In this document: positions 2,865-37,049 of the stretch, one piece after another
Layout: each line of letters opens with the position of its first letter
Position numbering within the stretch: the stretch's first letter is position 1
Virus record (IMG/VR): IMGVR_UViG_3300047562_001218
Span: 1-37,172 of that record
DNA: 37,172 nucleotides
DNA from: a virus
Reading direction: 5' to 3' (one strand)
The notes under the pieces: generated by a model
What the model saw: the letters and a program-made list of their open reading frames with translations, nothing else
Told to the model about the DNA's origin: nothing
Database searches by the model: none
Program-made: the position numbers and the translations under genes

Positions 2865-3668
2865 ATGAAACCAGTATGCTTGATGTTGGATGAAATGACA
2901 CCAGAAATAAAAGATATTCTTGCAGAGTTTGTAGACTTTAAATATCCGAATGACAATTCTGACCACAGCCGAGATTTTTCCTTTGTTTATACAGGATTGA
3001 CTCCTGTTGTGACCAATGCTCCTGTGTTTTGTCCTTGTACTGGCGTGGATCATATTGATTCTCCAAAGATTACATATCTTGGCGATGAATTTAAAAAAGA
3101 GTTTTCGCAAGCCGTTACATCTACTGCAGAGCATACTATATCTCTAATGTTGCAGATATTAAAGAAAAACAAAATGCAAATATTGAATAAAAGAATATTA
3201 ATTATCGGTTATGGTAGAATTGGAAAGCTAGTGCATAAAATGTTATCTGGATTTGATGTTGATGTTGTTTGTGCAGATATTGATTCTGATTGGGAGTATA
3301 TGGTCAATTCTTTTGATATAATAACATTGCATATACCATTGCAAGAAAATACTGAAGCAATATTTAGCAAAGATATAATACACAGAATGAAAAAAGATGC
3401 CATATTAATAAATACTTCAAGACCTAGAATTGTTGATGAGGTAGCGATTATTGAAGGATTGAAAGCTGGACGTTTCTTGGGATATGCACATGACTTTAAC
3501 CCTATATCAGATAGAGATACTGACGAGAGATACAGCTTGTGGTTCAATAGTGGAGTAAATCATAAAATTGTTGCAACGAATCATATTGGCGGTAATTGCA
3601 ACGAAGCTAGAAAGGCTACTGATGCTTATATTGTAAGAAAGATATTGCAACACATAAAGGCTATTTAA
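2865..3668 (+). CDS. D-2-hydroxyacid dehydrogenase family protein
   Basis: A 267-residue member of the D-isomer-specific 2-hydroxyacid dehydrogenases, which interconvert 2-keto and D-2-hydroxy acids with NAD(H). Family landmarks are TAEHTISLML (87-96), the Rossmann loop GYGRIG (115-120), an acidic residue after the second strand (ADID, about 137-140) suggesting NAD, NTSRPRIVDE with the substrate-binding Arg at 186, and ATNHIGG with the catalytic His at 240. The Glu of the usual Arg-Glu-His set is not obvious: the matching stretch reads HDFNPISD. It is shorter than typical enzymes (about 310-330), with a trimmed N-terminal substrate domain. GGAGG lies just before the ATG. Lying directly ahead of the NeuB-C-A trio, it may act on a sugar-acid precursor, but this is inference. 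Confidence 0.85.
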   Translation: MKPVCLMLDEMTPEIKDILAEFVDFKYPNDNSDHSRDFSFVYTGLTPVVTNAPVFCPCTGVDHIDSPKITYLGDEFKKEFSQAVTSTAEHTISLMLQILKKNKMQILNKRILIIGYGRIGKLVHKMLSGFDVDVVCADIDSDWEYMVNSFDIITLHIPLQENTEAIFSKDIIHRMKKDAILINTSRPRIVDEVAIIEGLKAGRFLGYAHDFNPISDRDTDERYSLWFNSGVNHKIVATNHIGGNCNEARKATDAYIVRKILQHIKAI

Positions 3669-3684
3669 TTGTGGAGGAATCGCC

Positions 3685-3855
3685 ATGGATAAAACTATGT
3701 TATGTTATAGTTGTATGGGATGTAGCCGATTGAATGATAAAGGTTTTAGTGGTACAACAAATTGCAATGATTATAAACCAGATAAACAGAATACTTTTAT
3801 AGATAGAATTTGCAAAGAATGGGAACAGAAAAAAATAGAGAAGAAAAACAATTAA
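3685..3855 (+). CDS. Small Cys-rich protein
   Basis: A 56-residue protein starting at ATG 3685 with GGAGG eight bases upstream. The N-terminal CYSCMGC cluster plus two later Cys (TNCND, RICKEW) could bind a metal, possibly as a zinc ribbon. The C-terminus is highly charged (EQKKIEKKNN). I do not recognise a family. It lies between the dehydrogenase and neuB with short gaps and is probably co-transcribed with them. Its good ribosome binding site supports it as real, although it is too small for confident assignment. Confidence 0.7.
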   Translation: MDKTMLCYSCMGCSRLNDKGFSGTTNCNDYKPDKQNTFIDRICKEWEQKKIEKKNN

Positions 3856-3875
3856 TTTTATTTTCGGAGGGCATT

Positions 3876-4625
3876 ATGCTTACCAATAGAACAAATGTTA
3901 TTGTAGACGCTTGTGGCAATCACAACGGAAACATGAGAATGATTGAAAAAATGATTTATTATGCAAAAGAGTCGGGTGCAGATTACATCAAGTTTCAATT
4001 GTTTGATGCGAATGAGTTAAATAAAGATTGGGAAAACTACGAAGAAAACTACAAATACTATTCTGAAATTCAACTAGATGCAAACAAAGTTTCCAGAATA
4101 ATCAATTTGGCGAATGAAGTTGGCATAAAGGTATTATTTACTGCATTTTCTATGAATATGGCAAGAATGTTGCATTCACTGGGGCAAAAAGAAGTTAAGA
4201 TTGCTAGTCCAGATGCTGACAACTGGGAACTGATTCTGTTTTGTGTCTTAAATTTCGAGCGAGTGTTCATTTCTGCTGGCATGATAGACACGAAAAACTT
4301 AATTAGACTAAAACAACTACTTAGAAGAAACGATGTATTGTTTTATTGTATTAGCAAATACCCAACAAAACCCCAAGACATTGATTATGACAAAATGGCT
4401 TTGTTTGATGGATTTTCTGACCATACTGAAACCATTGATTGTGCTAAACAGGCAATAGACCTAGGAATTCAGTGGATTGAAAGACACTTTACGCTTGGAA
4501 AGTTTTTGCCTGGTAGAGATCATAAATTGTCATCAACACCAGATGAAATAAAGGACTTGTGCTTACACAGAGATTATGTTGCTAAGTGTGAAGCATACAA
4601 GGGGCGGTGGACAAATGGCAAATAG
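3876..4625 (+). CDS. neuB: NeuB-type nonulosonic acid synthase, catalytic barrel only
   Basis: NeuB enzymes condense phosphoenolpyruvate with an N-acyl-mannosamine-type sugar to give sialic, legionaminic or related nine-carbon acids. The 249-residue protein keeps the barrel motifs: GNHNG (14-18), ADYIKFQ with Lys39, VKIAS with Lys108, SAGM, KYPT, GFSDHT with metal ligand His183, IERHFTL with metal ligand His204, and GRDHKLSSTPDE. The family's first Glu (EIG-NHNG) is Asp11 here. It is about 100 residues shorter than standard NeuB because the C-terminal SAF (antifreeze-like) domain is absent. That domain normally lends an Arg to the neighbouring subunit's active site. ATG 3876 follows CGGAGGG. 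The end overlaps neuC by 11 bases, implying coupled translation. Confidence 0.9.
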   Translation: MLTNRTNVIVDACGNHNGNMRMIEKMIYYAKESGADYIKFQLFDANELNKDWENYEENYKYYSEIQLDANKVSRIINLANEVGIKVLFTAFSMNMARMLHSLGQKEVKIASPDADNWELILFCVLNFERVFISAGMIDTKNLIRLKQLLRRNDVLFYCISKYPTKPQDIDYDKMALFDGFSDHTETIDCAKQAIDLGIQWIERHFTLGKFLPGRDHKLSSTPDEIKDLCLHRDYVAKCEAYKGRWTNGK

Positions 4626-5640
4626 AAAAATTGTTCACGTTATTACAAACAGAGCATCGTATGGCAGAGTCAGAAACATATTGAAAGAAATTAACAACAC
4701 AGATGGACTAGAATTGATTATCGTAAAAGCAGGTGCTGCAGTAGATTTAGAAATAGACTTTGAAACAGATTATTTACTTCATTGCTTGGTAAATGACGAT
4801 AGCCATGTTGCAATGGTAAAAACTGCATCTTTAATGGCAAATGAGTGTTCTACTTTGTTTTCAATAATAAAGCCAGATGTAGTATTGATTCATGGAGATA
4901 GATACGAACAACTCGGAGTTGCAATGGCAGCAAGTTATTTGAATATAAAAATTGCACATACAGAAGGTGGCGAAACTAGTGGCTGTATTGATGACAAAGT
5001 AAGGAATGCAATCACAGCATTGGCAGATATACATTTACCAGTAACAGAAAAAGCATTTATGAAATTGCACTTTATGAATGGTGGAAATATTTTTAAAGTT
5101 GGTAGTCCTGCAATAGACTTATGCAGAGAAGCCATAGAAGACGATTTAAACGATTATAATGATGAATCATATATTCTTGTGCTACATCATCCAAACACAA
5201 CGGATAAAGAGAAAATAGAGCCAATGATACGTGTCCTAGATCGTATGCCAGTTAAAAAGATATGGATAAACTCGAATATTGATGCAGGAAGCAAAGAAAT
5301 GGCAAGGCTATTTCATAAAACCGATTGGGAGTTTAGAAAAAACTTAAGTCCAAAAGAATATTATGTGCTATTAAATAATTGTGAAGTGGCGGTTGGTAAT
5401 TCTTCATCGTTTATAAAAGAAGGTGCATATCTTGGAGTTCCTGTTGTTTTGGTCGGAAGCAGACAACAAAGTAGAGAAATGCAAGAGAATGTAATGCTTG
5501 CCAGTGATGAAAGCGAACAAGAAATTGAAAATGCAATATCATTACAGATACAACACGAGAGATATTCTGCTAGTCATGCGTATGGTGATGGAACATCTAG
5601 TCAAAAGATTGTTACAATATTGCAGGAGGTTTCTATATGA
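4615..5640 (+). CDS. neuC: NeuC-type UDP-N-acetylglucosamine 2-epimerase (hydrolysing)
   Basis: NeuC enzymes convert a UDP-HexNAc to free N-acetylmannosamine (or a di-N-acetylated equivalent in the legionaminic pathway) plus UDP, supplying NeuB. The 341-residue protein has the two-domain GT-B layout. Visible signatures are TNRASYGR near the N-terminus, HGDRYE (Asp95), AHTEGGE (Glu117), DDKVRNAITALADIHL, HHP (191-193) and the UDP-binding GNSSSFIKEGAYLGVPVVLVGSR. All key acids and the His are kept, so it should be active. ATG 4615 overlaps neuB and the stop overlaps neuA (ATGA). Sequence alone does not separate NeuC from LegG/NnaA-type epimerases. Confidence 0.92.
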   Translation: MANRKIVHVITNRASYGRVRNILKEINNTDGLELIIVKAGAAVDLEIDFETDYLLHCLVNDDSHVAMVKTASLMANECSTLFSIIKPDVVLIHGDRYEQLGVAMAASYLNIKIAHTEGGETSGCIDDKVRNAITALADIHLPVTEKAFMKLHFMNGGNIFKVGSPAIDLCREAIEDDLNDYNDESYILVLHHPNTTDKEKIEPMIRVLDRMPVKKIWINSNIDAGSKEMARLFHKTDWEFRKNLSPKEYYVLLNNCEVAVGNSSSFIKEGAYLGVPVVLVGSRQQSREMQENVMLASDESEQEIENAISLQIQHERYSASHAYGDGTSSQKIVTILQEVSI

Positions 5641-6251
5641 AAATATTGGGTGTGATTCCAGCTAGAAAAGGTTCTGTAACAATTAAGAATAAAAATTTAT
5701 ATCCTATTTGTGGTGTGCCTATGCTTCAATATACTCTTAGTGCAGCATGTGAAAGCAGCTTAGATGATATTGTTATTTCTACTGATTATGACCCAATGAT
5801 ATTCGAAGGAAATGTAACTATAATAGAAAGACCTGAGCATCTTGCCACCAGCAAAACAAAAATGATTGATGTTATGCAGCATGTAGCAAAATTCATGGAC
5901 TATGATGCTTATATGATATTGCAGCCAACATCTCCATTAAGACTTGTGGATGATATAGAGGAAGCTATTGAAAGATTTGCAGCAGAAGAAAATGCAACGA
6001 GTTTATATTCTGGGTACTATATGGGGCTAAAACACAAAGAAAAAGCATATGACAAATTAGAAAATGAATTGCACTTTCAAAGAAATGGTGCAATTTTTAT
6101 TATGACTAAAGAGTTAATTAAACAAGGAAAGTTGTGGGATGACAATGTAATTCAATTTGAAATGCCAAAATCACGTTCAATAGATATAGATGATATGGAC
6201 GATATGCAAATGGCAGAAGCTTTAATAGCATATGACGTATTTGGAGATTAG
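5637..6251 (+). CDS. neuA: NeuA-type CMP-nonulosonate cytidylyltransferase
   Basis: This 204-residue enzyme would activate the nine-carbon acid with CTP to a CMP-sugar donor. Family marks are IPARKGS at the N-terminus, QPTSPLR (96-102), RNGAIFI (149-155) and DIDDMDD near 183-189 for the metal and sugar. The CTP-binding signature normally reads R-x-G-S-K followed by KN; here the Lys is Val14, while Arg10 and Lys19-Asn20 remain. This is a possible loss or shift of activity. Spore-coat SpsF-like and LegF-like transferases share the fold. The start ATG overlaps the neuC stop in ATGA, the tightest link in the cassette. Confidence 0.9.
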   Translation: MKILGVIPARKGSVTIKNKNLYPICGVPMLQYTLSAACESSLDDIVISTDYDPMIFEGNVTIIERPEHLATSKTKMIDVMQHVAKFMDYDAYMILQPTSPLRLVDDIEEAIERFAAEENATSLYSGYYMGLKHKEKAYDKLENELHFQRNGAIFIMTKELIKQGKLWDDNVIQFEMPKSRSIDIDDMDDMQMAEALIAYDVFGD

Positions 6252-6640: not shown

Positions 6641-8527
6641 GTGGCTTACATGGAATATGATAGTGAAAAAAGAAAAATGGAAAAGAATATGCGTAGACAA
6701 GATTTTATGACGCAAGATGAAATGAACGAAGTTGATAAATGGATAACAAAGATAAATCATAACAAAGGATATATGTCTGAATTTTACAGTCGATGGAAGG
6801 GCGAGGACGAAGCCTATAGAAATGACCAGCCGATGACACCAAACAGACCGAATACAAGAGTTGGCATACTCAATGCTATTATTGAAACTAGAGTTTCTTC
6901 TTTGGTGGATAAAAACATTGCAGTTGTTTGTAGAGGTGAAGGAAAGTCTGACCAATCATTCGCAAATTGGGGAAGAGTTGGCTTAGAGTGGACACTACGG
7001 AAGAATGGATTTAAAAAAGTATTGGCAGTCCACGAAAGACGCAGATCACTTCATGGCGCAGGAATATTCAAAGTATTTTTCGACCCAGACGCATTACATG
7101 GCTTTGGATTGACTAAGATTACTTGTGTTCCACTAAACAAGATATTCATTGATACAAAAGTAAAGGACCCACTAAGATTCCAAGAAGCAGAATACATAGC
7201 AGAAACAATACGCTTGTCGGAAGAGCAGTTTGAGAGTCTGTACGGAGAAGATAAAGCGGATGCCATTGATTATGGCAACAACGTGATAGAAGATACAACA
7301 ACTTTTAACGAAGATGAATTGTTTTATGACGATGCAGACGGTGCAACATTGATACAGCTTTGGACTAGACATAAAGGAAAACTCAGGCTTAGAGAAATGT
7401 CTGGTTGTGGTGTTTTATTGTACGATAGTCATAAAGAAGGCATGCGCGATGAGAATCAAAAGAACAAGAAGTATACACATGAAAGCTATTACAGCTTTGT
7501 GAATGACCAATATCCTTACTTCTTTACTGGTATGTATCAAGAAGAAGGCAGGTTATGGGGATTTGGAGATGGATGGTTATTGACTCCACTACAAAACATG
7601 CTGAATGACTTGTATGATAAAATAAGAATGTCGGCAAGACCACACTTGATATTGTTTGACCCAAACAGTGAGGTGGATTTAGAGGATTTTGACGAGAACT
7701 CACTAGAGCCAAGACCAGCAAGCCTTTCTAGTGGAAAGGTGGTAGATTATGTTCCTTGGGGAACAATTAATGAATCATGGTGGAGATTGCTAGTACAGAT
7801 ACATGAAGAAATACAAAGAGTGTCTAGAACAAATTACATTATGATGGGGCAGCGCTCTTCGGCAGATACAGCAACAGAAGCCGCCATACAACAACAACAA
7901 GGCACAACAGCGATTGACCACATGAAGTTGATGCTACAAGAAACAATAACAAGTATGTTGGAGTATATGCTAGGACTTATGCAAGAGTTTTATACAGAAG
8001 CAAAAGCCTTTAGAATTGACGAAGAACGAGAAGATTACGAATGGATTGACTTTAGACAGCTTGGAAAGGTACCAGCAATGGTTCCTGCTACGCAAGACTT
8101 CATCGAAGAATACATGAGAATGAATCCAGAAGGCGAGATGCCAGAATGGATGATTTTGACAGACAAAGACGGCAACACGATGACAAAGAATGTTGACTTT
8201 GACATTCAAGTATCACTTGGTGCAGGATTGCCACAAAATAAGGCATTTATTTATCAGATGGCAGAGAAGCTGTCACAATTAGTCATTGAAGGACAACACG
8301 TTATTCATTATGGAGAAATGAGAAAATTTGTAAAAGATTATCTGGGAATACCACTTGCCGATAGTGACGAAGAACTGATGAAACAATTCACACAAGGACA
8401 ACAGCCACAAGGCACACCAAGTGAACAACAAAACAGTGCGATGACAGAAGGCTTATCTGCAACTGGTAGACCACAGATGTCTGCACTTCCTTTAATGAAT
8501 ACAGGAGGTGGTCTTGGTGCAGGATAA
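6641..8527 (+). CDS. Portal protein (podovirus type)
   Basis: A protein of about 628 residues with the size and context of the dodecameric portal through which DNA enters and leaves the head. It lies after terminase and before scaffold and capsid. The C-terminal half has the portal-like sequence QRSSADTATEAAIQQQQG followed by a long helical run (MKLMLQETITSMLEYMLGLMQEF), like the helical region of P22-type and other podoviral portals. The C-terminus is Gln/Gly-rich and disordered. GTG 6641 is chosen with AAGGG ten bases upstream; ATG 6650 and an in-frame TTG at 6623 are alternatives. The stop overlaps the next gene's start region. Confidence 0.85.
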   Translation: MAYMEYDSEKRKMEKNMRRQDFMTQDEMNEVDKWITKINHNKGYMSEFYSRWKGEDEAYRNDQPMTPNRPNTRVGILNAIIETRVSSLVDKNIAVVCRGEGKSDQSFANWGRVGLEWTLRKNGFKKVLAVHERRRSLHGAGIFKVFFDPDALHGFGLTKITCVPLNKIFIDTKVKDPLRFQEAEYIAETIRLSEEQFESLYGEDKADAIDYGNNVIEDTTTFNEDELFYDDADGATLIQLWTRHKGKLRLREMSGCGVLLYDSHKEGMRDENQKNKKYTHESYYSFVNDQYPYFFTGMYQEEGRLWGFGDGWLLTPLQNMLNDLYDKIRMSARPHLILFDPNSEVDLEDFDENSLEPRPASLSSGKVVDYVPWGTINESWWRLLVQIHEEIQRVSRTNYIMMGQRSSADTATEAAIQQQQGTTAIDHMKLMLQETITSMLEYMLGLMQEFYTEAKAFRIDEEREDYEWIDFRQLGKVPAMVPATQDFIEEYMRMNPEGEMPEWMILTDKDGNTMTKNVDFDIQVSLGAGLPQNKAFIYQMAEKLSQLVIEGQHVIHYGEMRKFVKDYLGIPLADSDEELMKQFTQGQQPQGTPSEQQNSAMTEGLSATGRPQMSALPLMNTGGGLGAG

Positions 8528-18276: not shown

Positions 18277-20226
18277 GTGGCTGAATTATCAGAAAAGCGA
18301 GTGAGGTTTATACAGAGTGTGGCAAGCAATCCAAACGCAAGCCAAGCGGCTAAAAACATTGCGGCAAAATATGCAAGAACTGCTGGAACGACTGTTGAAG
18401 CTGTTTCTGCAGCACCAAAAATAACGACTACAACAAGAGCAACACAAGCAACGCCTGTTAAAATACCGACTGGACCAAGCATAACTAGCAAGGCACCAAC
18501 GGGAGTGGCAACTCCTGGTACGGCAAGAGATATTGCTAAGCCAAGTGTTGAAGCACAAGTTGTTGAGCAAAAAATAACAACTCCAAAAGCACCAGCACCA
18601 ACACCTACACCAACACCTGCACCAACACCTGCACCAACGCCTGCACCACAACAATTTCCAACTGGTACACAAGGATTGAGAGCCACAGCAGAAGGTTATG
18701 GATTGCCTGTTGGATTTGATGCAACAACTGGACAGGTATCTATTGGAGGAAAGGCTGTAGACGTATCTGGATTGCAAAGAGATGCGCAAGGGAGTTATTT
18801 TGGCACACCAGAGCAGATACGAAGCATTATTAATCAAGCTGGTACACCGCCAAGTGGATATACTAGTTTGAGAGATGCGTTTGCTGGTTCTGATGTGCAA
18901 TGGACACCACAAACAGGAGTAACGATTGATGGAGTGCAAGTAGATACGAGTAGATTGCCAATCGTTGGAGATAGATATTATATTAAGCCAGAAGATGCAG
19001 CTGCATTGGCACAACAAGTACAAGCACAAAAAGAAGCTATGATGACACCAGAAGAGAGATTCCAAGAACAAATAACAGTTACTAATGAAGAATTACAAAG
19101 ACAGCAAGAAGAACTAAATAGACAAAGACAAGAATTAATGACAGGGCTTAGAGAATATACATCTCCTTTACAGGAAGAACTTACAACAACATTGCGTTCT
19201 ATTTATGGAAATCCATTCCAATATGACCCAAACGCAGACCAGTCTTTGCGACAGGCACAATCATATGCAGAGAAACAGTTAATGGAGCAACTTAATGCTA
19301 GAGGGATATTATCTAGCACGATTACAAGAGATCAATACGCTTCCTTATTATCTGAGCTAATACCAAAATATGAGTCTATTGCTTTTGAAAGATACAATCA
19401 AAACATAGACGGTTTATTAAAGAAAGCAAACGTGCTTACTCAATTATCTCAAGACGATTATCAGCGGTATAGAGATTTTGTAGTACAAAGCATAAACACT
19501 ATAGATGAAGTCAATAAAAACACCATATCAGCAGCAAAAAATAACTTGGATTCAATAAACGATGCGTTGAAAATGCAATTACAAAGAGAAAAAGATGCTT
19601 TTGATATGAATTTAAAAATGATTGAAGGTGCATACAAGAAATTAGATGCACAAGGATTTGTTGACAATGAGATTGCAGCTATTACAGGACTTGCAGTTAA
19701 TACTCCATCTCAAGAAGTTAGAAGGTCATTATTGCAACAAAAAATAGCAGTAGAGAAAGCAATACTAGATACTGAACTAAAAATACAAGAACAGAATAAT
19801 AAAGCAAAACTAGACAAAGAACAAGTTGATTATGAATATGAATTAAAAGCACCAGAGAGAGAACTTGCTGCAGCTAAGTTTGAAGAGCAAAAAAGAGCAA
19901 CAAGAGTAAGTGAAGGGCTTCGTTCTAGAGCGCAAACTACAGCTGAAGCAAATTTAGCATTGCGAGTTAGAGAAATTGAAGATAAAGCAGGAGAGAAAAA
20001 GAATTTAACGTATACGGAAATAGATAGAACCCTTGGAGATTTGATAGATGCTTATACAGAAAGTGAAATTCCTTCAATAAGTGATTTTTCTTGGACAAAG
20101 CCTGGTTCAGTAGAAGCTAAAGAATTGTCTGAATTTATTGAAGAAAGAAGTGGAAATTTAGATGTGACGCAAGCATATGCGTTATACAAAAAATATAATA
20201 TACCAATTCCTGGAGAAGCGAGGTAA
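18277..20226 (+). CDS. Internal virion (ejection-type) protein
   Basis: A 649-residue protein. The parts in order are a basic helical N-terminus, a Pro/Thr/Ala linker (about 105-125), a compact domain near 130-245 with strand-turn pattern (GLPVGFDATTGQVSIGGK), and a very long Gln/Glu/Lys-rich coiled coil (about 255-560). Its place after the tail hub and before a giant partner fits the podoviral DNA-ejection proteins stored in the head (compare P22 gp7/gp20/gp16 and T7 gp14-16). GTG 18277 has AAGGAG upstream. No lytic enzyme motif is seen. Confidence 0.7.
   Translation: MAELSEKRVRFIQSVASNPNASQAAKNIAAKYARTAGTTVEAVSAAPKITTTTRATQATPVKIPTGPSITSKAPTGVATPGTARDIAKPSVEAQVVEQKITTPKAPAPTPTPTPAPTPAPTPAPQQFPTGTQGLRATAEGYGLPVGFDATTGQVSIGGKAVDVSGLQRDAQGSYFGTPEQIRSIINQAGTPPSGYTSLRDAFAGSDVQWTPQTGVTIDGVQVDTSRLPIVGDRYYIKPEDAAALAQQVQAQKEAMMTPEERFQEQITVTNEELQRQQEELNRQRQELMTGLREYTSPLQEELTTTLRSIYGNPFQYDPNADQSLRQAQSYAEKQLMEQLNARGILSSTITRDQYASLLSELIPKYESIAFERYNQNIDGLLKKANVLTQLSQDDYQRYRDFVVQSINTIDEVNKNTISAAKNNLDSINDALKMQLQREKDAFDMNLKMIEGAYKKLDAQGFVDNEIAAITGLAVNTPSQEVRRSLLQQKIAVEKAILDTELKIQEQNNKAKLDKEQVDYEYELKAPERELAAAKFEEQKRATRVSEGLRSRAQTTAEANLALRVREIEDKAGEKKNLTYTEIDRTLGDLIDAYTESEIPSISDFSWTKPGSVEAKELSEFIEERSGNLDVTQAYALYKKYNIPIPGEAR
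18591..18650 (+). repeat. 12-base tandem repeat coding a Pro-Thr-Ala linker
   Basis: Near-identical copies of CACCAACACCTG encode alternating Pro with Thr or Ala. It forms a flexible rod between the N-terminal and central domains of the ejection-type protein, and the repeat number may vary between related phages. Confidence 0.85.
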
Positions 20227-20230
20227 TTAT

Positions 20231-27746: not shown

Positions 27747-27763
27747 AATTGGAGGTAATTCAA

Positions 27764-29458: not shown

Positions 29459-29623
29459 ATGATTGAGCAACTGGAAGCAATGAGAGCATGGGCATTAAGC
29501 AATGGCTTTTACGATTGGGTTGAGCAATTGAACGATGTTATTGACAAGTTGATTGTTCAAAAAAGAGATCTGGAAGAATTAAGAGAAAAACACGAAAGAT
29601 TGCTGATACAAATTAAAGAATAA
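29459..29623 (+). CDS. Small coiled-coil protein
   Basis: A 54-residue helical protein (MIEQLEAMRAWALSNGF, then a heptad-rich VQKRDLEELREKHERLLIQIKE). TTGGAGGT precedes ATG 29459. It is the last gene before the bidirectional terminator. The N-terminal Trp-Ala-Leu helix resembles small phage proteins of unknown role. Confidence 0.72.
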   Translation: MIEQLEAMRAWALSNGFYDWVEQLNDVIDKLIVQKRDLEELREKHERLLIQIKE

Positions 29624-29626
29624 AAT

Positions 29627-29667
29627 AAAAAAAGACAATTGGTGAATCAAGCCAAAAGTCTTTTTTT
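29627..29667. terminator. Bidirectional intrinsic terminator
   Basis: AAAAAAAGAC and GTCTTTTTTT flank an inner TTGG/CCAA stem. Because A-runs and T-runs lie on opposite sides, it can stop transcripts from either direction: the early operon from the left and the predicted leftward RNA from the promoter at 29742-29770. Confidence 0.88.
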
Positions 29668-29735
29668 ACATTGGAAGTTAAACAAATGAACACATCACGA
29701 TGAACATTTTTTAAACAAATAAACAAATCAACGAT
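29627..29735 (-). ncRNA. Predicted small RNA 1, about 109 bases
   Basis: A consensus leftward promoter places a start near 29735, and the bidirectional terminator ends the transcript near 29627. No protein of useful size is coded; the longest frame has nine codons and no ribosome binding site. The RNA can form a 5' stem (ACACATC with GATGTGT, about 29685-29740 region) before the terminator hairpin. It reads away from the replication operon. Existence, ends and role are predictions from signals only. Confidence 0.5.
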
Positions 29736-29741
29736 GTGTGT

Positions 29742-29770
29742 ATTATATACCACGATTTATTATTTGTCAA
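29742..29770 (-). promoter_or_regulatory. Perfect-consensus leftward promoter
   Basis: Read on the minus strand, TTGACA (29770-29765), a 17-base spacer and TATAAT (29747-29742) match the sigma-A consensus at all 12 positions. The surrounding GTTTGACAAATA is repeated at the second leftward promoter. No minus-strand gene lies downstream before the terminator. Confidence 0.75.
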
Positions 29771-29772
29771 AC

Positions 29773-29796
29773 AAAAAACACCCCTTTTGGGATGTT
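29773..29796 (-). terminator. Leftward intrinsic terminator
   Basis: On the minus strand AACATCCC pairs with GGGGTGTT around AAAA, followed by a short T-run. The pairing is complete only on this strand because a G-T pair becomes a mismatch on the other, so it is built to stop leftward transcripts. Confidence 0.65.
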
Positions 29797-29839
29797 ATTT
29801 GCAGGTAATTGTTATTTAGTTGTATGGGTTCAATTGGGT
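29773..29839 (-). ncRNA. Predicted small RNA 2, about 67 bases
   Basis: The promoter at 29846-29874 would start near 29839 and the leftward terminator ends the RNA near 29773, just before the -35 of the next leftward promoter. No coding frame of note is present. It forms the upstream member of a tandem promoter-terminator pair. Predicted from signals only. Confidence 0.42.
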
Positions 29840-29845
29840 AATTTC

Positions 29846-29874
29846 ATTCTAGCAAAGTAAAAAATATTTGTCAA
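29846..29874 (-). promoter_or_regulatory. Second leftward promoter
   Basis: On the minus strand TTGACA (29874-29869), a 17-base spacer and TAGAAT (29851-29846) differ from consensus at one position. Its -35 region shares a 12-base direct repeat (TATTTGTCAAAC on the plus strand) with the other leftward promoter, 104 bases away. It lies back to back with the rightward promoter at 29880-29908. Confidence 0.68.
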
Positions 29875-29879
29875 ACTTA

Positions 29880-29908
29880 TTGTTTTTTATTGTAGTATGT
29901 GTTATACT
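29880..29908 (+). promoter_or_regulatory. Rightward promoter for replication operon
   Basis: TTGTTT, 17 bases, then TATACT, preceded by TG in the extended -10 position. The RHH gene starts 26 bases downstream behind GGAGGTGAT. The -35 nearly touches that of the divergent promoter, so one repressor could control both. Confidence 0.68.
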
Positions 29909-29933
29909 TATTTTACAGATTGGAGGTGATATT

Positions 29934-30080
29934 ATGAATAATTCAACACCATTAACAGCTATGAGAATTGACCTTGATACAAGAAAAGATTTGAAGGTAT
30001 TGTCTGCACAAGAAAGAAAAACAATGGGACAAATGATTAAAACGTTAGTCGAATTTTACAAAAAGAATAAAGGAGAATAA
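29934..30080 (+). CDS. Ribbon-helix-helix regulator
   Basis: A 48-residue protein with strand (PLTAMRIDL), helix (DTRKDLKVLSAQE), turn (RKTMG) and helix (QMIKTLVEFYKKNK), the Arc/CopG fold. As the first gene after the divergent promoters it is the natural candidate for autoregulation of this switch, perhaps through the TATTTGTCAAAC repeats. GGAGGTGAT precedes ATG 29934. An upstream in-frame ATG (29868) lies ahead of the promoter and is rejected. Confidence 0.85.
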   Translation: MNNSTPLTAMRIDLDTRKDLKVLSAQERKTMGQMIKTLVEFYKKNKGE

Positions 30081-30083
30081 GCA

Positions 30084-30914
30084 ATGGCAGATGACAAAAA
30101 ATATTTTTGGTTAAAATTAAAGGATGATTTTTTTGCACAAAAAGAGATAAAAAAATTAAGAAGAATTGCAGGTGGAGACACATACACAATTATATATTTA
30201 AAATTACAATTATTAAGTATAAAAAGTGATGGCAAATTAATTTTTGAAGGGGTAGAAGATAACTTTATCGATGAAATGGCTTTAACTTTAGACGAGGAAA
30301 TTGAAAATGTAAAAATTACACTAATGTTTTTACAAAAGCATGGATTGATTGAAGAATTGCGAAATGATGAATATTTTTTACCTAAAGTATGCGAAAGCAT
30401 AGGCTCGGAATCATCTTCAGCTGAAAGGGTTAGAAGGCATAGAATGGGACAAAAAATGTTACAATGTAACACCAGTGTAACAAACAGTAACGTCATTGAA
30501 ACAAAACGTAACACAGAGATAGAGATAGAGATAGAGAAAGATATAGATATAAAGAAAGATATAGAAAAAAAGTTAAAAAAAGAAAAAGATAAATATATTG
30601 ACGATTTCTTTGCAGAAATCTGGAAACTATATCCTAGGAAAAACGGAAAATCTGCTGTTACGAAAAAAGCTAAGGTTGAGTTGTATAAGCTTGGTTTAGA
30701 AAAAGTTACGAAAGCAATCAATAAGTTTAAGGCACAAATGCAAAAAGAAAACAGAGAAATAGAATTTTACATGTATGGCTCAACATTCTTTAACGGAGGT
30801 TACATAGATTATTTAGACAGTAATAGCGAAGAAGTTAAGCCTAAGCCGAAGAAGCAGGAGATTAAAATTATAGAAAGAGATTATTTACATGGAGAAGTGA
30901 CGCCTTTTTATTAA
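30084..30914 (+). CDS. Replication initiator (replisome organiser, DnaD-like)
   Basis: A 276-residue protein that should bind the phage origin and load the replicative helicase. The N-terminal winged-helix domain (KYFWLKLKDDFFAQKEIKKLRRIAGG) is the phage replisome organiser type. A charged linker (about 125-175) is coded by repeats that may be the origin. The C-terminal domain (IWKLYPRKNGKSAVTKKAK, then YMYGSTFFNGGYIDYL) is DnaD/DnaB2-like. AAGGAG precedes the ATG, three bases after the RHH stop. The primase-helicase follows, completing the replication module. Confidence 0.88.
   Translation: MADDKKYFWLKLKDDFFAQKEIKKLRRIAGGDTYTIIYLKLQLLSIKSDGKLIFEGVEDNFIDEMALTLDEEIENVKITLMFLQKHGLIEELRNDEYFLPKVCESIGSESSSAERVRRHRMGQKMLQCNTSVTNSNVIETKRNTEIEIEIEKDIDIKKDIEKKLKKEKDKYIDDFFAEIWKLYPRKNGKSAVTKKAKVELYKLGLEKVTKAINKFKAQMQKENREIEFYMYGSTFFNGGYIDYLDSNSEEVKPKPKKQEIKIIERDYLHGEVTPFY
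30457..30565 (+). repeat. Iteron-like repeats inside initiator gene, possible origin
   Basis: The perfect dyad TGTTAC-AAT-GTAACA (30457-30471) is followed by further GTAACA or GTAACG copies at 30477, 30487 and 30508. Beyond them lies an A/G-rich tandem AGAGAT/AAAGAT tract (30514-30565) with strand asymmetry. Binding sites followed by an easily melted tract within the initiator's linker is the layout of lambda-type origins. Confidence 0.55.
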
Positions 30915-35900: not shown

Positions 35901-35972
35901 TTATCAAAACATGAATAAAAATCAATTACAGGGAATTCTGGTAAATATTATGCACATATGGGAGGTGGAGAA

Positions 35973-36446: not shown

Positions 36447-36480
36447 AAAAAAGATATACCTTCATGGTATATCCTTTTTA
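36447..36480. terminator. Bidirectional terminator between converging operons
   Basis: GATATACC pairs with GGTATATC around TTCAT, with an A-run before and T-run after. It ends the rightward replication operon and the leftward small-gene operon. The stop codon of the leftward RHH gene lies in the loop. Confidence 0.85.
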
Positions 36481-36662
36481 TTCTGTTCTTTTTGCTTCTG
36501 CAGCTCTATGAATTCTGATTCGATTTTATCGTGGTATAATTCTATTATACGTTGAAATTCATCCGCCCGTGATCGCCTGTGGACGTGTGCAAGTTGGTTC
36601 AACATATCGTTTACTCCTTCTGTTACTCTTAAAGATATCAAGACTCTTTTTTGTCTGCCCAT
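36462..36662 (-). CDS. Ribbon-helix-helix protein (leftward operon)
   Basis: A 66-residue protein with strand (RQKRVLISLRVT), helix (EGVNDMLNQLAHVH), turn (RRSRAD) and helix (EFQRIIELYHDKIE), then a Gln/Lys-rich tail. The N-terminal basic strand would contact DNA. GGAGGG lies eight bases before the ATG on this strand. It is the last gene of the leftward operon and probably regulates it or the phage switch. Confidence 0.85.
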   Translation of the reverse strand: MGRQKRVLISLRVTEGVNDMLNQLAHVHRRSRADEFQRIIELYHDKIESEFIELQKQKEQNKKDIP

Positions 36663-36679
36663 TGTTTAGCCCTCCATGC

Positions 36680-36844
36680 TTATTTGAAAATTGCATTGCA
36701 TATATGTTTATTTTGATGAATTACTTTAAAAATTGCCGTAAAATCCCCCGTGGTATCGTATATATCATAGCAATCGAATACCATATATCCTTTTATTTTA
36801 CGCTTTTTATGTTTTTTATTTATTGTTTTAAAATTGTTTATCAT
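36680..36844 (-). CDS. Small protein of leftward operon
   Basis: A 54-residue protein with a very basic start (MINNFKTINKKHKKRKIKG) and a strand-rich remainder (YMVFDCYDIYDTTGDFTAIFK). GGAGGG lies nine bases before the ATG within the same junction sequence used by the neighbouring genes. No family was recognised. Confidence 0.7.
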   Translation of the reverse strand: MINNFKTINKKHKKRKIKGYMVFDCYDIYDTTGDFTAIFKVIHQNKHICNAIFK

Positions 36845-36863
36845 TTTTTAGCCCTCCATATGA

Positions 36864-37049
36864 TTATTTAAAAATATATATATCTTTATATCCGAATATG
36901 ATTTTATTGCATTTTTTTTCGGGTTGATTTGCAATGTCACACAATCTATTGGTTTCTTTTGTCCATTCGATTGTGTACTCCTTTTTTCGTCTAATCCCAA
37001 AAGATATACTACCGTCATTATAAACATATATAATCTTATTTATTTTCAT
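36864..37049 (-). CDS. Small protein of leftward operon
   Basis: A 61-residue protein, basic and strand-rich (MKINKIIYVYNDGSISFGIRRKKEYTI at its start, partly), with Cys at two places. GGAGGG upstream is formed by the last codons of the preceding gene, so translation is coupled. No family was recognised. Confidence 0.7.
   Translation of the reverse strand: MKINKIIYVYNDGSISFGIRRKKEYTIEWTKETNRLCDIANQPEKKCNKIIFGYKDIYIFK

Follow-up and report, generated by a model that had tools for sequence, protein, structure and literature searches.

Organization of the locus

The window, by which we mean the whole stretch of DNA analysed here, is a 37,172-base IMG/VR virus record. Its early genes are read rightward; the final one stops at position 29623, and the replication operon starts at 29934. 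The gene-free gap contains two leftward sigma-70 promoters and two terminators; the replication operon's own divergent promoter lies to their right. The features are listed below, with comparisons to L040 (IMGVR_UViG_3300021425_000861), the only close one (81% protein identity) of 80 ERF recombinase relatives that were retrieved.

29623 to 29668, both strands: terminator T2, at which the rightward operon terminates (its last gene stops at 29623) and RNA2 would terminate too
29626 to 29735, minus strand: RNA2, predicted, approximately 110 nt, body unconserved
29742 to 29770, minus strand: promoter P2, TTGACA-17-TATAAT, 12/12; in L040 only TTGTAA-17-TATACT
29770 to 29796, minus strand: terminator T1, 8-bp stem at 29796 to 29777, leftward only
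29770 to 29839, minus strand: RNA1, predicted small RNA of approximately 70 nt, with an unpaired 5' tail of approximately 37 nt and a terminator hairpin; homologous unit at 1844 to 1950 of L040
29803 to 29824, minus strand: conserved single-stranded core of RNA1, UACAACUAAAUAACAAUUACCU
29846 to 29874, minus strand: promoter P1, TTGACA-17-TAGAAT, 11/12, with a TGn extended -10
29880 to 29908 (approximate), plus strand: replication-operon promoter read from the sequence, with a weak -35 (TTGTTT) and an extended -10, TGTTATACT (in L040, TGTTACAAT)
29934 to 30080, plus strand: RHH-like leader gene, 48 amino acids, with a weak RHH_10 match below the cut-off
30084 to 30914, plus strand: replisome organiser (initiator) gene, Phage_rep_org_N
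30466 to 30572, plus strand: 6-, 18- and 21-base tandem repeats in the initiator gene, candidate origin

P1 and the rightward replication promoter are arranged back to back, with their -35 boxes approximately 5 bp apart. Since the P1 and P2 units are divergent from this promoter, RNA1 and RNA2 would not overlap the replication mRNA or be antisense to it. The sequence-only reading had placed them opposite the replication promoter, a description that holds only in the sense of divergent transcription. RNA1 lies wholly inside the gap and is antisense to no coding region, and RNA2 overlaps only the 3' terminator hairpin of the upstream operon mRNA, tail to tail (29626 to 29668). Downstream, the tandem repeats inside the initiator gene are the likely origin.

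Other regions of the window are also of note. At positions 1 to 2053, the terminase large subunit is split, with a Terminase_3 segment (45 to 341), a NUMOD4/HNH homing endonuclease gene (462 to 1031) and the rest of the terminase from approximately 1232; the split gene looks like the holder of a group I intron, with no Rfam family reaching threshold. Genes for a 2-hydroxyacid dehydrogenase, NeuB, UDP-GlcNAc 2-epimerase and a CTP transferase (2865 to 6251), inside the structural gene region, form a predicted phage-borne pathway for a sialic-acid-type sugar. The portal protein (6644 to 8524) gave no tblastn match in approximately 50,000 phage records and matched only a PHROG profile; judged by these searches, the virus belongs to a little-known phage lineage. 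Two overlapping searches, each sampling 398 genomes, likewise did not find the portal protein. At the right end, a late-regulator-like gene at 35958 stands beside two short minus-strand genes (36462 to 37049), one of which has a weak match to a family of phage transcriptional repressors.

Promoter and terminator signals in the gap

A promoter scan and folding confirmed the earlier claim that the gap holds two minus-strand promoters, each followed by an intrinsic terminator. Only four sites across the 37 kb score at least 11/12, and P1 and P2 are two of them; P2 is the sole 12/12 promoter in the virus, and P1, alone among the sites scoring 11/12 or more, also carries an extended -10. Shuffled windows contained on average 2.8 sites of at least 11/12 and 0.05 sites of 12/12, and overall no excess of promoter-like sites over shuffled sequence was seen. 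When the 266-base gap itself was shuffled, two sites of at least 11/12 appeared in 2 of 3,000 shuffles. The 12-base -35 region said to be identical in both promoters, GTTTGACAAATA, was found exactly at 29761 to 29772 and 29865 to 29876, with no other mismatch-free copy.

T1 forms its full 8-bp stem leftward only (-10.6 versus -7.6 kcal/mol) and has a U-tract leftward only, whereas T2 folds about equally on either strand (-15.7 and -15.2 kcal/mol), so that an earlier remark on one-way, leftward pairing applies to T1 and fails for T2. Promoter and terminator positions predict products of approximately 70 nt (RNA1) and 110 nt (RNA2); the sequence-only reading had given about 67 and 109 bases. The RNA1 unit has its own promoter and intrinsic terminator and no open reading frame, as in intrinsic-terminated phage small RNAs, and the first 37 bases of RNA1 are predicted to be 91 to 99% unpaired in both phages. 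No Rfam family scored above its gathering threshold for the unit. P1-T1 is probably a small-RNA gene making a phage RNA of approximately 70 nt.

Conservation of the P1-T1 unit in a related phage

L040 holds the P1-T1 unit at the same place, and the unit aligns at 75% (E = 1.6e-24). Fourfold sites of the adjacent ERF gene are 77% identical; against this yardstick, identity reaches 93% in P1 (27/29 positions) and 100% in the RNA1 core (22/22, with one inserted base in L040), with 57% from the -10 to the core, 17% from the core to the stem and 63% in T1. A structure-aware comparison of the window and L040 revealed that 7 of the 16 arm positions of the T1 stem differ, yet all eight pairs form, and in three of these both bases have changed. 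When neutral drift to 77% identity was simulated in a simple way, the promoter and the terminator survived together in approximately 0.2% of runs, and an identical 22-nt block arose in 2%. From this comparison of two sequences, P1, the core and the terminator pairing look to be under selection in L040.

Identity was 75% around P2, 44% in RNA2 and 20% in T2; the P2 counterpart in L040 is weaker (9/12), and a different two-way hairpin stands at the place of T2. Since P1, the core and T1 were kept while P2 and RNA2 drifted, these results favour one conserved small RNA (RNA1) rather than two. The check for conservation in related phages that the sequence-only reading had called for therefore separates its two units: P1, the core and T1 pairing are kept, with compensatory changes in T1, whereas P2 is weak, RNA2 is unconserved, and its terminator is shared with the rightward operon.

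Across 1.07 Mb comprising the window and related loci, the scan yielded just four units with a strong promoter and a terminator: that of the window, its counterpart at the same place in L040, a third within a coding gene (L098) and a fourth in L106. Further pattern scans of the viral and genome collections returned chance matches only, leaving L040 as the sole relative carrying the unit. Core-pattern matches in five genome contigs, several of which precede an apparent TPP riboswitch, got low scores against the two-sequence profile and seem to be chance matches; of 18 viral-contig matches to a less strict core, those beyond the L040 contig itself were also chance matches. The exact P2 promoter pattern gave no match, no homologue was found in the plasmids and annotated phages searched, and no viral relatives came up for the initiator or lysozyme-type queries. 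Relatives of the helicase have other genes upstream and lack the unit, and the LT985575 phage, with a similar initiator, is also without it.

Exchange of the replication genes behind the unit

Where the operon begins, the window and L040 share only the small leader protein (45% over 31 residues). The initiators show no detectable similarity (E 1.5): that of L040 has HTH_36 and weak DnaD_N matches, versus Phage_rep_org_N in the window, and also contains internal repeats, other than those of the window. The helicases differ as well, being a primase-helicase in the window and of the DnaB type in L040. Since the unit is kept while the initiators show no similarity, it does not appear to depend on one particular initiator.

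Predicted pairing of RNA1

The RNA1 core ends in AAUUACCU, which can pair with AGGUGAU or AGGUAAUU at ribosome-binding sites. The Shine-Dalgarno sequence of the RHH leader gene, AGGUGAU (29924 to 29930), can pair with AUUACCU of RNA1. The start of this gene is the second-best predicted site in the window (-11.6 kcal/mol) and the third in L040 (-9.0 kcal/mol), and it is the only orthologous start region with a predicted pairing of -9 kcal/mol or lower in both phages. However, pairing to start regions was no better than for shuffled cores, 13 to 15% of which did as well in the number of sites reaching -9 kcal/mol or lower, since an ACCU in any sequence will pair with Shine-Dalgarno sites; a general excess of RNA1 pairing to ribosome-binding sites was likewise not significant. 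Therefore, the RHH leader gene is held as a lead only for a target of RNA1. The start region of the initiator is not among the best predicted pairings.

On the plus strand, AGGTAATT occurs three times, a total at chance level: once as RNA1's own complement and, at 20221 to 20228 and 27753 to 27760, at the starts of a 1647-residue ORF and of a 49-residue, membrane-bound-looking ORF. These two gene starts are possible further targets. Overall, RNA1 likely acts by pairing in trans. Cis-antisense control of the replication mRNA is unlikely, since the units are merely divergent from the replication promoter; of the RNA-based control first suggested for the locus, the small RNA is supported and control remains plausible.

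Comparison with known small RNAs

Like the predicted RNA1, lambda OOP (pO-tO) is a short RNA read leftward from a promoter of its own to an intrinsic terminator, located between preceding early genes and the initiator gene, and origin repeats lie inside the initiator gene in lambda, as do the candidate ones in the window. However, OOP is antisense to cII and RNA1 to no gene, including the coding 3' end of the preceding gene; moreover, the OOP promoter faces pR transcription, and P1 is divergent from the replication promoter. RNA1 is not known to be related to OOP in sequence.

CopG of pMV158 is a small ribbon-helix-helix protein. In the copG-repB operon, this repressor precedes the initiator gene, and RNAII consists of a 17-nt single-stranded tail and an 8-bp terminator hairpin (PMC4485353). 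RNA1 shares this build, a single-stranded 5' tail and one terminator hairpin, and the neighbourhood. RNAII, however, is complementary over its full length to the stretch between copG and repB, whereas RNA1 maps outside the replication transcript and carries a longer tail, and good pairing with the start region of the initiator is not predicted for it. OOP and RNAII are the nearest working models, and RNA1 appears to be a member of neither, because it is antisense neither to a cII-like coding sequence nor to a pre-initiator region. PreS of lambda and VpdS of VP882 are likewise short and phage encoded, with a trans action such as we infer for RNA1; they differ in having Hfq binding or shown targets in Gram-negative hosts (PMC12197685). 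RNA1 is probably a new small RNA of phage origin, belonging to a general kind already known.

Proposed mechanism and alternatives

From the signals, their rarity and the conservation of P1, the core and the hairpin, we infer transcription, pairing, target and effect as follows. Host RNA polymerase would start at P1 and stop at T1, giving an RNA of approximately 70 nt in which an unpaired 5' tail is followed by the hairpin of the terminator. This RNA would pair in trans through its 22-nt core, and its most likely use would be to mask ribosome-binding sites of phage early mRNAs, that of the RHH leader of the divergent operon first, which would damp the replication operon. P2-RNA2 would be a weaker, lineage-specific second unit or mere leftward transcription into the shared two-way terminator. 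We assign this explanation as a whole a probability of approximately 0.5.

The main rival to a trans-acting RNA1 is that leftward transcription itself matters: P1 would compete with or supercoil the replication promoter and tune origin firing, with the terminators keeping transcription short. Lambda pO offers a precedent, since it influences replication by interfering with pR (PMC3985674). The closeness of the two -35 boxes, the candidate origin repeats inside the initiator gene and the P1 spacer, unusually conserved as expected of an operator, are all consistent with such control, which nevertheless leaves a conserved 22-nt core amid drifting flanks unexplained; we regard it as a serious but minority possibility.

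No integrase or CI-type repressor was found among the ORFs examined. An immunity role, also suggested by the sequence-only reading, consequently found no support. The same absence, together with a divergent promoter pair at the edge of the early operon, would suit a remnant of a temperate divergent switch, in which a repressor gene once read leftward has since been lost and the terminators stop useless transcription. This is unlikely given that P1, the core and the terminator pairing look selected in L040.

It is more improbable still that RNA2 is an OOP-like antisense RNA against the end of the upstream rightward operon; the tail-to-tail overlap with the 3' terminator would permit it, but halts approximately 3 nt short of the stop codon and covers no coding sequence, and P2 and RNA2 fare poorly in L040. 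Chance consensus matches in AT-rich DNA, in keeping with the ordinary overall frequency of promoter-like sites, are very improbable in view of site quality, tandem placement, terminators and conservation.

Returning to the trans-acting RNA1, a more specific and rather doubtful version is a CopG/RNAII-like control head, in which an RHH protein and a divergent trans-acting RNA masking its ribosome-binding site would be kept as a cassette while initiator and helicase are swapped. Should RNA1 be transcribed and act in trans, the replication boundary of a little-known phage lineage would be under RNA control, which would point to phages being able to keep a control cassette while the replication machinery that follows it is exchanged.
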